Assembly (NCBI RefSeq): GCF_000179235.2
Contig: NZ_CP039373.1
Location: 310,032-374,031, forward strand
Length of the DNA stretch: 64,000 bases
From: Synechococcus sp. CB0101
GTDB taxonomy: Bacteria > Cyanobacteriota > Cyanobacteriia > PCC-6307 > Cyanobiaceae
Direction of reading: 5' to 3'
A model generated the notes under the pieces. The model was not told the origin of the DNA, ran no database searches, and saw only the letters and a list, made by a program, of their open reading frames with translations. Made by a program: the position numbers and the translations under genes. Position 1 is the first letter of the stretch. Each line of letters opens with the position of its first letter. Below are positions 25,051-31,166 of this stretch, in pieces.

Positions 25051-26455
25051 ATGCGCAAGACCTTCGTTCTCGATACGAATGTGTTGCTCCACGACCCGCA
25101 GGCGCTCACCCGCTTTTGAAGACAACGCGGTGGTGATCCCCATCGAGGTGGTGGAGGAGATCGACCGCTTCAAGCGTGACTCCGAGAAGGGCCGTAATGC
25201 CCGCCAGATCTCCCGGCTGCTGGATGCGCTGCGGGAGAAGGGCAACCTGGCCGATGGCGTGCCGATCGACGACGCCAGCGGCGGCACCCTGCAGGTGGTG
25301 TTCTGCCGCAGTGAAACCCTGGCTCAGTTGCCGCCTGAACTGAAGGGCGGTAATGGCGATAACAACATCCTGGCGGTGGCGCTCGAGCAGCTCCGCTCCG
25401 GCCTGATCAGCGACCAGCCACCGGTGGTGCTGGTCACCAAAGACACCAATCTGCGCATCAAGGCCGATGCGGTGGGCCTCACGGCGCAGGACTACACCAC
25501 CGACAAGGTCGACATCGCCGACCTCTACCCCGGGGTGTGCGAGCTGATGGCCAGCGCTGCGGCGATGGAGCAGCTCAAAGGGGAGGGGGGGCTGGCGCTT
25601 GTTGATCTTCCCTCTGCGCAAGGGGCAGCTCTCCAGGCGAATGAGGGGGTCACCCTCGTGGATCAGGCCCAGCCCAACCACACGCTTTTGGCCCGTTTCG
25701 ATGCGGGAACTGGTCGCCTGTTGCCGCTGCAGCGCGCCGGCAAAGTGCGGCTCGGCAAGGTGAGCGCCCGCAACCGCGAGCAAACCTTCGCCCTCGACCT
25801 ACTGCTGGATCCTTCGGTGCAGTTGCTCACACTGGTGGGCAAGGCCGGCACCGGCAAAACTCTTCTGGCCCTGGCGGCCGGATTGCACCAGGTGGCTGAT
25901 GAGCATCTCTACGAGCGCCTGCTGGTGACACGCCCGGTGATTTCCCTGGGCAAAGAGATCGGCTTCCTGCCCGGAAGCCTTGAGGAAAAGATGGGTCCCT
26001 GGATGCAGCCGATCATCGACAACCTCGATTTCCTGCTTGGTGGTGCTGATGCCGATGAGGGCCGCTCACCACGACCCAGCAGCGGCAGCAATCGCCCTGG
26101 TACCCAGCGCGGTAACCGCAGCAATTGGACCGACCTCAAGGGCATGGGCCTGCTGGAAGTGGAAGCGATCAGCTACATCCGCGGCCGATCGATTCCGCGG
26201 CAGTTCATGGTGGTGGATGAGGCCCAGAACCTCACCCCCCACGAGGTGAAAACGATTGTGACCCGGGTGGGCGAAGGCACCAAGATCGTGTTCACCGGTG
26301 ACCCCTATCAGATCGACAATCCCTACGTGGATGCCGAGAGCAACGGCCTCACCTGGCTGGTGGAGCGCTTTAAAGGGCAACGCCTTGCCGGCCACGTGAC
26401 CCTGATGCGCGGCGAGCGGAGCGAATTGGCGGAACTGGCGGCGAACTTGCTCTGA
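25051..26455 (+). pseudogene. PhoH-like PIN-domain ATPase gene, frameshifted near its 5' end
   Basis: ATG 25051 opens with a PIN-domain N-terminus (RKTFVLDTNVLLHDPQALTRF) but runs into TGA at 25117-25119. The family continues one frame over as FEDNAVVIPIEVVEEIDRFKR to 26455. The shift falls in a TTTT run (25114-25117), where one T fewer restores a protein of about 467 aa. The rest is intact: PIN domain (to about residue 150), Walker A GKAGTGKT, Walker B VVDEAQNL and a TGDPYQID motif. PhoH2-type proteins are RNA helicase/RNases. Sequencing error, true mutation or +1 recoding (TTT TGA) are all possible. Confidence 0.8.
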
Positions 26456-26456
26456 C

Positions 26457-27785
26457 TCAGCAATCCAGGCAGGAGCGGCGTTCGGTGTCACTGATGTCGC
26501 CGCGTTCGCGTTGCCATTGGCGCCGCCGTAGCCGCTCATAGGCCTGGCAGAACTCTTCGCCCAGGGCGCTTCGCAGGTCGGTATCGGCGCTGAACGCATC
26601 CAGGGCTTCACCCAGATCGGCGGGCAGCCGCTGGCATTGGCCAGGCGTGAGCGGGTTGGCGTAGTTGTCGTTGTCGTGGCGCGGGCCTGGATCGAGCTGG
26701 CGCTCAATCCCATCGAGCCCCGCCGCCAGCACCGCTGCTTGCAGCAGGTAGGGGTGGGTGGAGCCATCCGGCAGGCGCAGTTCCAGACGTTGCCCATCGG
26801 GGATGCGCACCATGTGGGTGCGGTTGTTGCCGGTGTAGCTGATCCCGCCCGGGCTCCAGGTGGCGCCGGAGGTGGTCGGCGGTGCGGCGAGGCGCCGGTA
26901 ACTGTTCACCGTGGGGTTGGTGATGGCGCAAAGCGCCGGTGCGTGCTCGATGAGTCCGCCAAGGAAGTGATAGGCCAGCGAGGAGAGGCCCAGCTCACCG
27001 TTGGGGTCGTGGAACAGATTGCGCCCGGCCATCGCACTGCCGTTGGCTCCCCACAGGGAGAGGTGGGTGTGGCAGCCGTTGCCGGTAAGGGCGGCGAAGG
27101 GTTTGGCCATAAAGCTGGCCCGCAGACCCTGTTGCTCCGCCATCGCCTTCACCATCACCTTGAAGAAGGCATGGCGATCCGCAGTGGTGAGGGCTTCAGC
27201 GAAAGTCCAGTTGATCTCGAACTGGCCGTTGGCATCCTCGTGGTCGGCTTGGTAGGGCCCCCAGCCCAGCTGCTCCATCGCGGTGAGCAAGGGCCCGATG
27301 AGGCCGAACTGGCGCATCAGCGCCAGCTGGTCGTAACAGGGTTTTTCCTGATGATCGGCGGTGTCGGCGATGGCGGCGCCATCGGGGCTGAGCAGGAAAA
27401 ATTCCGCCTCAACGCCGCTGCGCAGCTCGTAGCCGAGTGCCGCTGCTCGTTGCTGCTGCCGGCGCAGCAGGCGACGTGGGCACTGCGCCATGGGCTCGCC
27501 ATTCAGTGTGAGCTCGGCGGCCACCCAGCCCACACCCGGTTGCCAGGGCAGGGGTGTGAGGCTGCTGGGATCGGGAATCGCCATCACATCCCCATCGGCG
27601 GGGGAGAGGTCGAGCCAGGCGGCAAAGCCGGCAAAGCCGGCTCCATCGCCCGCCATGGCTGCGGCCGCTGACGCGGGGACCAACTTGGCCCGCTGCATTC
27701 CGAACAGATCGGTGAACGACACCAGCAGGAACTGAAGCCCGAGCTCCTGCATCTGTGCGTTCAGGGTTGGGGAAGGAGTGTTCAT
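26457..27785 (-). CDS. glnT: Type III glutamine synthetase family protein
   Basis: The 442-aa protein has the N-terminal beta-grasp (FTDLFGMQRAKLVP), the GS catalytic region with VEAEFF, NGCHTHLSLW and NPTVNSYRRL, and the arginine-binding SPGGISYTGNNRTHM segment. Length and pattern match the type III glutamate-ammonia ligase (GlnT) branch, distinct from GlnA. Some relatives make gamma-glutamyl amides rather than glutamine. It is the third gene after a desaturase and an alpha/beta hydrolase, 20 bp from the latter, and convergent with phoH. Confidence 0.85.
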   Translation of the reverse strand: MNTPSPTLNAQMQELGLQFLLVSFTDLFGMQRAKLVPASAAAAMAGDGAGFAGFAAWLDLSPADGDVMAIPDPSSLTPLPWQPGVGWVAAELTLNGEPMAQCPRRLLRRQQQRAAALGYELRSGVEAEFFLLSPDGAAIADTADHQEKPCYDQLALMRQFGLIGPLLTAMEQLGWGPYQADHEDANGQFEINWTFAEALTTADRHAFFKVMVKAMAEQQGLRASFMAKPFAALTGNGCHTHLSLWGANGSAMAGRNLFHDPNGELGLSSLAYHFLGGLIEHAPALCAITNPTVNSYRRLAAPPTTSGATWSPGGISYTGNNRTHMVRIPDGQRLELRLPDGSTHPYLLQAAVLAAGLDGIERQLDPGPRHDNDNYANPLTPGQCQRLPADLGEALDAFSADTDLRSALGEEFCQAYERLRRRQWQRERGDISDTERRSCLDC

Positions 27786-27805
27786 GCCGGAGTGGGGTTG
27801 CGGAA

Positions 27806-28795
27806 TTAGAGGGCGATGGGTTGGGCGAGCAGCTCGGCCACGATGCGCTGCAGCTGCTGTTGCTCGGCAGCACTGCTGTGGGGGTTGCCGGCGCGGTGCC
27901 CCAGTTCGGACTGGATCAGATGCCACTGCGCCCCTGGGATCGCAGCGGCGTCTGCCGCGAGATCGTCGGGGGTGAAATAGAGGTCGTGGCTGCCGGCCAC
28001 CACCGCTGTGCGGGCCTGGATCGCCGCCAGGGTGGCGGGGAGATCACCGCCGGCTGCGACATCGTGCGCGAGCCAGGTGTCGAGCATGGCGATCAGATCG
28101 CGCGGATCATGGCGCTGGTAGTGGGGCAACCACTGCTGTTCCACGTGCTGCTCCACCGGCTCCTGCAGGCCGCGGAAAAACGGCTGACTCGCCGCCCAGC
28201 TGGCATAGATCAGCGCATAGGTGCGCAGCCCCTGATCCGGTGGATCTGAGAAGCCCGATCCGTTCCAGTTGGCATCGGCGGTGAGAGCCTGGCGCAGGCT
28301 GAGGCAGAACAGTCGGTTATGGGGTGAGGTGCGCGTGGTGCCGCAGACGCAGCAGATGCGCTCCACAAGCTCCGGCCGATCCACGGCCCACTGGTAGGCC
28401 TGCTGGGCTCCCATCGACCATCCGTAGATCAGGGCGAGCCGTTTCACCCCAAAGGCCTCCATCAGCAGCTGGTGTTGGGCGGCCACGTTGTCGCGATGGC
28501 TCACCACCCAGCCCTGCTCGGCTAGACCCATGGCTCCGTGGCTGGGGCTGCTGGAGGCGCCGTTGCCGAACTGGCCCGCAATCACGATGCAGTAGCGATC
28601 GGGATCGAGAACGGGGCCAGCCAGCCAGGCCAGATCGTCGGGCCGGGCGCCGTAGGAGGTGGGAACCAGGATCAGGTTGGAGCGATCGGCATTGAGCTCG
28701 CCGATCTTCAAGTAGGTGATCTGGGCATCCGGGATGGTCTTGCCGCACTGCAGAGGCCAATGCCCGAGATGGTGCTGCTGCAACTGGGCTGTCAT
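27806..28795 (-). CDS. Alpha/beta hydrolase, homoserine O-acetyltransferase (MetX)-like
   Basis: The 329-aa alpha/beta-hydrolase has the nucleophile elbow GWSMG near residue 135, the acid region VVAGSHDLYF and a late histidine in ELGHRAGNP. The pattern GASSSPSHG and QQAYQWAVDRP matches the MetX-like branch. Real MetX acylates homoserine; smaller relatives such as this are often hydrolases or acyltransferases of unknown substrate. Its ATG overlaps the desaturase stop by 4 nt. Confidence 0.75.
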   Translation of the reverse strand: MTAQLQQHHLGHWPLQCGKTIPDAQITYLKIGELNADRSNLILVPTSYGARPDDLAWLAGPVLDPDRYCIVIAGQFGNGASSSPSHGAMGLAEQGWVVSHRDNVAAQHQLLMEAFGVKRLALIYGWSMGAQQAYQWAVDRPELVERICCVCGTTRTSPHNRLFCLSLRQALTADANWNGSGFSDPPDQGLRTYALIYASWAASQPFFRGLQEPVEQHVEQQWLPHYQRHDPRDLIAMLDTWLAHDVAAGGDLPATLAAIQARTAVVAGSHDLYFTPDDLAADAAAIPGAQWHLIQSELGHRAGNPHSSAAEQQQLQRIVAELLAQPIAL

Positions 28796-29709
28796 GCAGC
28801 CAGTGCCGCAAGGTTGCGTTGCAGGCCGCGATGAACGTTGATGTAGCCCTGATCGAGATGGTGCAAGGCCGGAGCCACATAGCCGTGGGCTTTGGGCAGG
28901 GCGTGGAACGGTATGGAGGCGTAGAGGTGGTGTTCGGCATGGAACGGCATGTTCCACATCAGCCAGCGCAGCGGCTGCAGCGTCAGCGTGGTGCGGGTGT
29001 TGCGGGTGCCGTCATCGCTGAAGCTGCAGCCGCCGTGCTCGGCCAGCAACACGAAGCGCAGCAAGGGTTGTCCCACCGCCAGGGGGAGCAACCAGGCCCA
29101 GAAGAGCAGCCCATTCCCGCTGGGAATCGAGGCCAACAGCAAAAGGCCGTAGAGGCCAAATTGCAGCCGCACCGATCGCGTGACCTGAGCGGCTGCCTCC
29201 TCAGGGATATAGGGGCAGCCGCTGAAATCCCCCAGCAAGGCGCGCGTGTGGCCGCGGAGTTTTCCGATCCACCAGGTGAGTCCGCTGAGCTCGAGGAGAT
29301 AGGCGGCCAGGGTGCTGGGTGCCGGATCCTCCAGTTCCGGATCGAGCCCGGGCTGATGGGTGTAGCGGTGATGCCACTGGTGATAGCGGCGATAGAAATC
29401 GGCGTTGTAGAAGCTCAAGACCCCGGCCCACCAGGCCACCGTGTCGTTGAGGCGGCGGCCGGCGAAAGCGGTGCGGTGGCCGCACTCGTGCATGGCGCAA
29501 AAGCAGAACGCCAAGCCAGCGCCCAGCAGGACCAGCGCCACCAGCCGCAGGGGGAGCGGCAGGTCGCTCCGCAGCCACAGGCTTGCCGTCACCGCGATGA
29601 ACGCAGCATGCGCGAGGGTCTGGCGCCAGCCGGGGCCATCCGAGCGTTCGTTGAGTTGGCGCAGAGCGTCGGGTGGAATCAGCGCTGGGCTGAGCGGGTT
29701 GGCGGCCAT
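28792..29709 (-). CDS. Fatty acid desaturase family protein
   Basis: The 305-aa membrane protein has the three histidine boxes of di-iron desaturases: HECGH near residue 95, HQWHHRYTH near 130 and HAEHH near 262, with hydrophobic segments between. It resembles fatty-acid desaturase / carotenoid hydroxylase-type membrane enzymes; the electron donor and substrate are unknown. First gene of a three-gene operon with the MetX-like hydrolase and GlnT. Confidence 0.85.
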   Translation of the reverse strand: MAANPLSPALIPPDALRQLNERSDGPGWRQTLAHAAFIAVTASLWLRSDLPLPLRLVALVLLGAGLAFCFCAMHECGHRTAFAGRRLNDTVAWWAGVLSFYNADFYRRYHQWHHRYTHQPGLDPELEDPAPSTLAAYLLELSGLTWWIGKLRGHTRALLGDFSGCPYIPEEAAAQVTRSVRLQFGLYGLLLLASIPSGNGLLFWAWLLPLAVGQPLLRFVLLAEHGGCSFSDDGTRNTRTTLTLQPLRWLMWNMPFHAEHHLYASIPFHALPKAHGYVAPALHHLDQGYINVHRGLQRNLAALAA

Positions 29710-29789
29710 CGATGGATGGAACGGTCGCTCGCACTGTCTGTCAGTGCCCTGACCGCTGACCGTTCAGCCTGAACAACCGGCCGGGCGGC

Positions 29790-31166
29790 TCAAACCATCC
29801 GCTCTGGCCGCACCCACTGGTCGAACTCTTCGCCGCTGATTTCGCCCAGCACCAGTGCGGCTTCCCGCAGGCTGAGGCCGTGCTTGTGGGCGTGTTTGGC
29901 AATGCCGCTGGCGCGGTCGTAGCCGATGGCGGGGGTGAGGGCCGTGACCAGCATCAGGCTCTGGTTGAGCAGCCTCTCGATGCGCTGTTCGTTGGCCCGC
30001 AGGCCCTCGATGCAGTGCTCACGGAAGCTCGTGCAGGCGCCGGCCAGCAGCTCGATGCTCTCGAGCACGTTGTGGGCAATCAGGGGTTTGAACACGTTGA
30101 GTTCAAAGTTGCCCTGGCTGGAAGCCATCTGCACGGCGGTGTTGTTGCCCATCACCTGCACGGCCACCATCGTGAGGCTTTCGCACTGGGTGGGATTCAC
30201 CTTGCCCGGCATGATCGAGCTGCCGGGTTCGTTTTCCGGCAGTACCAGTTCGCCCAGGCCGCAGCGGGGGCCGCTGCCCAGCCAGCGGATGTCATTGGCG
30301 ATCTTCATCAAGCTGCCGGCCAGCACCGTGAGCGCGCCATGGGCTGATGCCAATGCTTCGTGGCCGGCCAGGGCCTGGAATTTGTTGGGGGCACTGCTAA
30401 AGGCTGTGCCCAGCCGTTCGCTCAGGCGTGCGGCCACCGCCTCGCCAAAGCCCTTCGGGGCATTGAGGCCGGTACCCACCGCGGTGCCGCCGATGGCGAG
30501 TTCGCGTACGCGTGGCAAGCTCTGGCGGATCGCCTCCAGCGCCAGTTGCAGCTGCATCACGTAGCCGCTGAATTCCTGGCCCAGGCTCAATGGCACCGCA
30601 TCCTGCAGATGGGTGCGGCCGATTTTCACCAGGCCGGCGTAGCTGGTGGCCTTGGCCTGGAGCGCGGCGGCGAGCTGCTCCACCGCCGGTAGGAGCTGTT
30701 GCTCCAGTTCGAGCACCACGGCCACGTGCATCGCAGCCGGGAAGGTGTCGTTGCTCGACTGGCTGAGATTCACATGATCGTTGGGATGCACCGGGCTCTT
30801 GCTGCCGAGCTCGCCGCCCAGGGCCTCCACCGCTCGATTGGCAATCACCTCATTGGCGTTCATGTTGCTCTGGGTACCCGAGCCTGTCTGCCACACCTTC
30901 AGCGGGAATTCCGCGTCGAGCTCACCGCCAGCCACCTGCTCCGCTGCCGCCACGATGGCGGCGCAGAGGCCTGGCTCCAGCTTGCCCAGATCACGGTTGG
31001 CTTCGGCGCAGGCCGCCTTCAGTTGCCCGAAGGCGTGCACGATCGCCAGCGGCATGCGCTGACCGAAGGGGAAGTTGGTGATCGAGCGCTGGGTCTGGGC
31101 ACCCCAGTAGTGCTCGGCGGGCACCGCGATGGCGCCCATGCTGTCGGTTTCCTGGCGGGTGCTCAT
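29790..31166 (-). CDS. fumC: Class II fumarate hydratase
   Basis: The 458-aa protein has [15 protein letters not shown] (fumarase/aspartase signature), [14 protein letters not shown] and [14 protein letters not shown]. It interconverts fumarate and malate in the partial TCA cycle and recycles fumarate from purine and arginine synthesis. Complete, normal length. It lies 20 bp after the PSI accumulation factor gene, so the two may be co-transcribed. Confidence 0.96.

Follow-up and report, generated by a model that had tools for sequence, protein, structure and literature searches.

MocD-like oxygenases act in rhizopine catabolism, in which they carry out an O-demethylation. GmaS serves as a marker of methylamine-using bacteria, and passages of the paper on RhGmaS describe Asp177, Glu186 and Arg312 as catalytic residues, a methylamine pocket of seven residues, and the replacement of the ammonia-site Glu (Glu flap) and Asp50' of glutamine synthetase (GS) by Trp300 and Ala48' (PMC7948447). 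According to the same passages GmaS also accepts ammonia, with a far higher Km, and the legend of the alignment mentions one cyanobacterial sequence. In the degradation of aniline and 1-naphthylamine, gamma-glutamylation precedes oxygenation (passages of PMC11335346), and the cyanobacterial guanidine operon, including its Rieske gene, has already been published (passages of PMC10119275). Here we analysed a 64,000-nucleotide (nt) stretch of the Synechococcus sp. CB0101 genome (hereafter, the window; NZ_CP039373.1, positions 310,032 to 374,031), in which three adjoining minus-strand genes encode a desaturase-type oxygenase, an alpha/beta hydrolase and a putative GmaS-type ligase, GlnT (hereafter, the trio). 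We conclude that the trio is very probably a conserved organic-nitrogen module. That it salvages nitrogen from small alkylamines, with the GlnT product processed by the oxygenase and hydrolase instead of the N-methylglutamate enzymes (Mgs/Mgd), is a narrower claim to which we give an even chance.

The locus resembles the N-methylglutamate pathway in its ligase, which passes TIGR03105 and has the GmaS catalytic and methylamine-pocket residues, but Mgs/Mgd markers were absent from the 51 genomes with the desaturase–hydrolase pair that were tested and the ligase gene stands beside those of a desaturase-type oxygenase and an alpha/beta hydrolase. With the aniline and 1-naphthylamine systems (gamma-glutamylanilide synthase; class GoaS) it shares the combination of a GS-like ligase, an oxygenase and a hydrolase, whereas the oxygenase there is a Rieske dioxygenase and not a membrane desaturase-type enzyme, and the hydrolase is GAT-like and not of the alpha/beta type (passages of PMC11335346). 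In relatives the trio follows the guanidine (gdm) operon, in some loci directly and in the same direction; the window, by contrast, has neither the riboswitch nor the gdm genes, and the passages of PMC10119275 do not mention the trio. A MocD-like gene on a Rhizobium plasmid is homologous to the trio oxygenase gene (29.8%), and the similar gene of L258 is placed in the same region of the desaturase tree; identity is low, however, and the genes in L258, L251 and L254 adjoin a ferredoxin gene, whereas the trio has none. Our literature search found no paper on the trio, and the terms guanidine, glnT and desaturase do not occur in PMC11851481, which treats organic nitrogen in freshwater picocyanobacteria.

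A GmaS-type active site in GlnT

GlnT (26457–27785, minus strand; 442 amino acids, aa) scored 303.9 bits against PF00120 (cut-off 24) and 596.1 bits against TIGR03105 (cut-off 469.6), a type III ligase model that is not methylamine-specific. Its nearest PDB chain is 7cql, the GmaS of Rhodovulum (E = 2.5e-167). The window protein is identical to RhGmaS at all ten positions compared (Lys30', Ala48', Tyr147, Gln175, Asp177, Glu179, Glu186, Asn188, Trp300 and Arg312), and the seven methylamine-pocket residues are all identical as well. In its own numbering, Ala52 and Trp310 stand at the ammonia-site Asp and Glu of GS, and the catalytic residues are Asp181, Glu190 and Arg322. Five of the ten positions, including the Trp/Ala replacements at the ammonia site, were checked and kept in the GlnTs of all 21 loci studied in detail (the window and 20 picked for carrying the trio). 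To judge from these residues, GlnT looks like an alkylamine ligase rather than an ammonia enzyme, in agreement with the first-pass annotation, which had taken it for a type III GS capable of forming gamma-glutamyl amides, and at odds with a role solely as a GS.

The same genome (G000, a single contig of 2.79 Mb) has a separate glnA-like gene at G000:C1:614037-615131. Two further long frames outside the window (776 aa and 742 aa) each show a match to part of the GS catalytic domain (G000:C1:239626-240168 and 378052-378558) and are perhaps two GSIII-type enzymes.

Conservation of the trio in cyanobacteria

Strong matches to the desaturase and strong matches to the hydrolase were found in an identical set of 66 of the 201 Cyanobiaceae genomes. 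GlnT was strongly matched in 63 of these, and in the other three (G047, G074 and G107) the hydrolase or glnT is partial or cut by contig ends. Scanning named genomes with the desaturase revealed 97 stretches that encode a relative, and the best 80 of the 97 were kept; they come from Cyanobium, Synechococcus, Vulcanococcus, Aphanothece and unnamed cyanobacteria, with one Gloeomargarita and one mislabelled Bifidobacterium metagenome-assembled genome (MAG). The hydrolase adjoins the desaturase in all 80 kept loci, and glnT lies beside the pair in 71 (69 within 900 nt by script, plus L192 and L219, where it abuts the hydrolase), the remaining nine having at most 407 nt of contig left. The mislabelled record, L205, is titled a Bifidobacterium breve MAG and has a Cyanobium-type trio; it is probably a mis-binned contig.

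Across the phylum, the hydrolase (E ≤ 1e-40) was detected in 22 of 377 genomes, 12 of them outside Cyanobiaceae. Eleven of the 12 carry the desaturase next to the hydrolase (that of L278 was matched in two segments and may be frameshifted), and glnT is near in six of the loci, once divergent and once 1.5 kb away. GlnT (E ≤ 1e-160) occurred in 12 of the 249 phylum-sample genomes, every one hydrolase-positive, in a sample for which most non-matching genomes are unlisted and no reverse count is available. In 4 of 12 genomes (G211, G236, G361 and G367) glnT lies away from the pair in the same genome. Weaker GlnTs in G205 and G260 come without a hydrolase match; that of G205 is followed by a GATase-like gene (named by eye), and no partner gene was seen for that of G260. 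Plasmid searches returned 277 and 153 records, mostly weak, from which 14 regions were opened by choice as examples and not as counts (one, L250, carries no annotation). The full trio, with its 4-nt overlap, is present on a plasmid of Leptolyngbya sp. BL0902.

The desaturase and hydrolase genes of the window overlap by 4 nt and a 20-nt gap separates the hydrolase gene from glnT, confirming the tight packing of the three genes at 26457–29709 that the first-pass annotation had noted. With start codons chosen by script, the same overlap was found in 19 of the 21 detailed loci, the exceptions being L108 (1 nt) and L099 (an 11-nt gap). Compared with the G150 orthologues, the NG86 dN/dS was 0.07 for GlnT, 0.17 for the hydrolase and 0.10 for the desaturase. 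The trio is no chance cluster: neighbourhood comparison in the 201 family genomes and the phylum shows joint conservation in relatives, and the suggestion that the genes behave as one unit was borne out. An NtcA box (GTAN8TAC) lies within 300 nt upstream of the desaturase gene in just one of the 21 loci, so NtcA control is unsupported.

The oxygenase and the hydrolase

The first gene of the trio (28792–29709, minus strand; 305 aa) encodes a membrane di-iron oxygenase of the desaturase superfamily, putatively a small-molecule hydroxylase. It scored 135.9 bits against PF00487 (cut-off 29.7) and carries the three His boxes HECGH (residues 74–78), HQWHH (110–114) and HAEHH (257–261), with histidines invariant in the 21 trio desaturases. 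NCBIfam scores were weak (GntB 43.8, DesA 30.9 and CrtR 21.2 bits), and the protein failed both the acyl-lipid desaturase model NF052548 (30.9 bits vs a cut-off of 500) and the arginine hydroxylase (GntB) model NF041365 (43.8 vs 380). The resemblance to GntB was discarded as evidence, as CrtR (47.9 bits) and other desaturase-like proteins score alike. The AlphaFold model (pLDDT 82.4) best matches the membrane desaturase-like chains 8xks_K and 8xqw_M, and AlkB weakly. In the tree, the desaturase lies among those of other cyanobacterial pairs and among proteobacterial oxygenases (MocD-like ones and those of guanidino and amine clusters); lipid desaturases and CrtR are set apart from this group by a split with support 94/95, which is not starred, and long branches are present. 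A single clade of all trio and pair desaturases was rejected (p = 0.000126), the proteobacterial pairs being separate from the cyanobacterial ones. The desaturases of the window and G150 fall in another clade than their own hydrolase and GlnT, and a tree with the expected clade was rejected (approximately unbiased test, p = 0.00125, the clade having been defined after identities were known). The operon's leading gene was apparently replaced by the copy of a relative, with the 4-nt overlap retained.

The second gene (27806–28795, minus strand; 329 aa) encodes an alpha/beta hydrolase that passed PF00561 (46.8 bits, cut-off 25.8) and PRK07581 (338.5 bits, cut-off 332) and failed the MetX model TIGR01392 (106.5 bits vs a cut-off of 500). 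The earlier description as MetX-like holds for the fold and does not extend to MetX itself. Ser127, Asp271 and His300 are invariant across all 27 hydrolase homologues and probably form the catalytic triad. The nearest PDB chain is 5e4y (E = 8.6e-54), which we take to be MekB. In the plasmid regions opened, genes of the GS family or for an amidase, a urea-type transporter or a hydantoinase are found near homologues with 37–43% identity.

Linkage to the guanidine operon in relatives

In 8 of the 20 relative loci, the trio is accompanied by a co-directional guanidine block. The block encodes a GdmH-like ureohydrolase, HypA- and HypB-like proteins and a three-part ABC transporter, together with a second GmaS-type ligase (hereafter, GlnT') in six loci and a Rieske oxygenase in seven; some blocks with the Rieske oxygenase also hold an opposed TIM-barrel gene, and in L096 the block runs opposite to the trio. 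A Guanidine-I riboswitch was found upstream of gdmH in the loci scanned for it. The GdmH-like protein passes just a general agmatinase model (176.7 bits, cut-off 174.3), and its name rests on the riboswitch, the neighbours and the published description, there being no dedicated model. The HypA-, HypB- and PhoH-like, fumC, urease and Mgs/Mgd cluster genes mentioned here were named by eye, except for SoxD and GXGXG matches.

The riboswitch was detected in 71 of the 201 family genomes, 52 trio-positive and 19 trio-negative (Fisher p = 1.8e-19, which ignores descent and is not taken as a probability). Where both lie on one contig, the trio is within 15 kb of the riboswitch in 21 of 31 genomes, from seven genera; in 21 other genomes they are on separate contigs. 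Among the best 80 of the 97 relatives, 29 loci have at least two block genes upstream of the trio, co-directional in 28. In L230, L233, L239 and others, the trio directly follows the riboswitch, gdmH and the transporter in the same direction, with about 350 nt between the ATPase and desaturase genes. GlnT', whose flap residue is Trp and whose other ammonia-site residue is Thr (7/7 sequences), was found in 41 of the 201 genomes, all of them with the trio (41/41); the 19 genomes that have the riboswitch and no trio are without it. Apart from a truncated glnT in G044, GmaS-type ligases in the family sample always accompany the oxygenase and hydrolase.

In G044 (L327 5372-6979) the riboswitch, gdmH residues 4–181 and glnT residues 99–423 abut, as either a decayed joint unit (deletion scar) or an assembly fault. 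Outside the family, the riboswitch guanidine operon of G361 (L318 6825-10841) has a GlnT'-type gene flanked by those for the HypA-like and HypB-like proteins, which is not where GlnT' sits in Cyanobiaceae.

In the window, the trio is separated by an 80-nt spacer (29710–29789, unstranded) from the stop of fumC (29790–31166, minus strand, upstream of the trio), and a PhoH-like gene (25079–26455) is convergent towards it on the other side. The gene order of the window and G150 (L098) is phoH, trio, fumC and two shared further genes, and that of G072 and G099 (L103 and L111) is trio, guanidine block, fumC and the same two genes. We infer that the window lineage lost the guanidine block and kept the trio under purifying selection; the block could instead have been inserted in the other lineage. 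With the block absent and the trio kept, the trio would therefore have a use without guanidine.

A possible oxidative route for the ligase product

SoxD, taken as the marker of Mgd, and GXGXG, taken as that of MgsB, were both searched for in 51 genomes with the pair: 40 from among the 66 of the family, each at least 90% complete, and 11 from outside it. SoxD was found in none of the 51, the window's own genome included, and GXGXG occurred only within frames of at least 750 aa, never as a free-standing gene. Another cyanobacterium, G474, carries SoxD, free-standing GXGXG and a gmaS-mgs-mgd cluster (L312 5792-15603), identified by eye together with the SoxD and GXGXG matches; no desaturase lies near its hydrolase, which is a distant one.

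The pair is placed after the ligase mainly because the Mgs/Mgd markers are absent and GmaS-type ligases accompany the pair. GlnT would spend ATP to couple an amine, most likely methylamine or a similar amine derived from methylated amines or guanidines, to glutamate, yielding a gamma-glutamyl-alkylamide. The membrane di-iron oxygenase would then hydroxylate the alkyl carbon adjoining the nitrogen, and the serine hydrolase would cut the oxidised product to glutamine or glutamate and an aldehyde, so that the two enzymes would replace MgsABC and MgdABCD. The degradation of aniline and 1-naphthylamine, in which the amine is gamma-glutamylated before it is oxygenated, offers a precedent (passages of PMC11335346). 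This substrate, order of steps and chemistry are what we infer from the direct observations, namely the conservation of the trio, the GmaS-type active site, its recurrent association with the guanidine operon among relatives and the absent Mgs/Mgd markers. We tentatively propose, as a possibility, a previously undescribed cyanobacterial oxidative route for amine nitrogen in which gamma-glutamyl-methylamide would be dealkylated, tied in many freshwater picocyanobacteria to a guanidine-riboswitch operon that brings a second GmaS-type ligase; one nitrogen pool might thus be fed by both methylated amines and methylated guanidines.

Other neighbours were seen in single cases. The trio of G319 adjoins a trimethylamine monooxygenase (Tmm) gene (770 bits, cut-off 675) and a trimethylamine N-oxide (TMAO)-demethylase-like gene that scored 785.7 bits, below the cut-off of 1100, with 158 model positions missing. 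In G254, of the same genus, glnT heads a set of genes recognised by eye as ureA, B, C, G and D. Tmm above the cut-off together with a TMAO-demethylase-like gene was found in two cyanobacterial genomes (L287 3486-6798 and L313 4483-8642), adjacent to the trio in L287 only. In L279 the trio also neighbours a gene of the creatininase family, which scored below the model (109.1 bits vs a cut-off of 235; a like gene occurs in L280) and was given no weight.

Several observations weigh against the salvage of alkylamine nitrogen in the order proposed. Two Proteobacteria have desaturase and hydrolase homologues (35–41%) together with an iron alcohol dehydrogenase and without GlnT, so the pair can act without the ligase. 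The link to guanidine is incomplete: 14 trio genomes have no riboswitch match, of which 11 near-complete ones are also without GdmH, and in 10 of the 31 same-contig genomes over 30 kb lies between the trio and the riboswitch. No Guanidine-I riboswitch was found in the window or in its genome, which likewise has no Rieske match and gave just a distant ureohydrolase (E = 1.8e-24) in the GdmH search. Tmm was rejected as a general partner of the trio, since 2 of 52 genomes gave a score above its cut-off and it was linked in one. The co-occurrence figures are raw genome counts, uncorrected for kinship, and the Mgs/Mgd contrast comes from one genome (G474), with SoxD in none of 14 control genomes. 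We know of no activity for any of the three proteins, and to our knowledge cleaving a hydroxylated amide is no established job of PRK07581-type hydrolases.

Alternative explanations

The same module could also run in the reverse order, with the oxygenase and hydrolase freeing an amine from an N-alkyl compound (a methylated amine, amide, urea or guanidine) and GlnT capturing it. This would suit the way the genes are ordered in the window and relatives, with the desaturase first, the hydrolase second and glnT last, the pairing of desaturase and hydrolase where glnT is elsewhere and in the two Proteobacteria without GlnT, and the amidase, urea-type transporter and hydantoinase genes near some hydrolase homologues. 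We consider it possible but doubtful, as the gamma-glutamyl-amide would be left without a known next enzyme where the Mgs/Mgd markers are missing, and as GlnT' is never found without the pair within the family. A guanidino-specific module, in which an alkylguanidine would be hydroxylated, guanidine freed for GdmH and the leftover amine handled by GlnT, seems improbable to us despite the riboswitch-operon linkage in seven genera and the co-directional position behind the transporter in L230, L233 and L239. Known enzymes free guanidine by hydroxylating next to the guanidino nitrogen (passages of PMC12186494), and a guanidino-compound cluster on an Alisedimentitalea plasmid holds distant homologues of the transporter, the desaturase (28%), the hydrolase (39%) and the GS-type ligase (38%). 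However, at least 11 near-complete trio genomes, the window's included, have neither riboswitch nor GdmH, the trio keeps other company outside the family, and the weak similarity to GntB is unspecific, CrtR scoring as high.

The first-pass annotation had suggested that the trio could produce or remodel a fatty amide or glutamyl lipid, and the desaturase superfamily, the membrane fold and the MetX-like hydrolase are compatible with this. Against it, the lipid desaturase and MetX models were failed widely, the desaturase lies far from lipid desaturases in the tree, GlnT has a small-amine pocket of GmaS type, and the company in relatives is of nitrogen genes, the recurrent neighbours being the guanidine operon. 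A lipid role is unlikely, and the specific product suggested has a very slim chance; no lipid gene family recurs beside the trio in the 20 clustered loci, in which annotation is incomplete. It is also hard to credit that GlnT is an ordinary GS and that the three genes share no pathway. TIGR03105 is named for a type III glutamate-ammonia ligase, and ammonia is also a substrate of GmaS, one with a far higher Km (passages of PMC7948447), but the ammonia-site residues are replaced, a separate glnA-like gene exists, the desaturase and hydrolase sets match in 66 of 66 genomes, and GlnT co-occurs with them even where it is unlinked.

Significance

If the oxygenase and hydrolase are indeed the partner set of a GmaS-type ligase, photosynthetic picocyanobacteria would also use methylated nitrogen, by a route undescribed in the literature searched, and a gene now annotated as a fatty acid desaturase would belong to nitrogen metabolism. 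The reading is testable in cultured strains and would also assign a role to the genes found with the guanidine operon in Cyanobium-type genomes.

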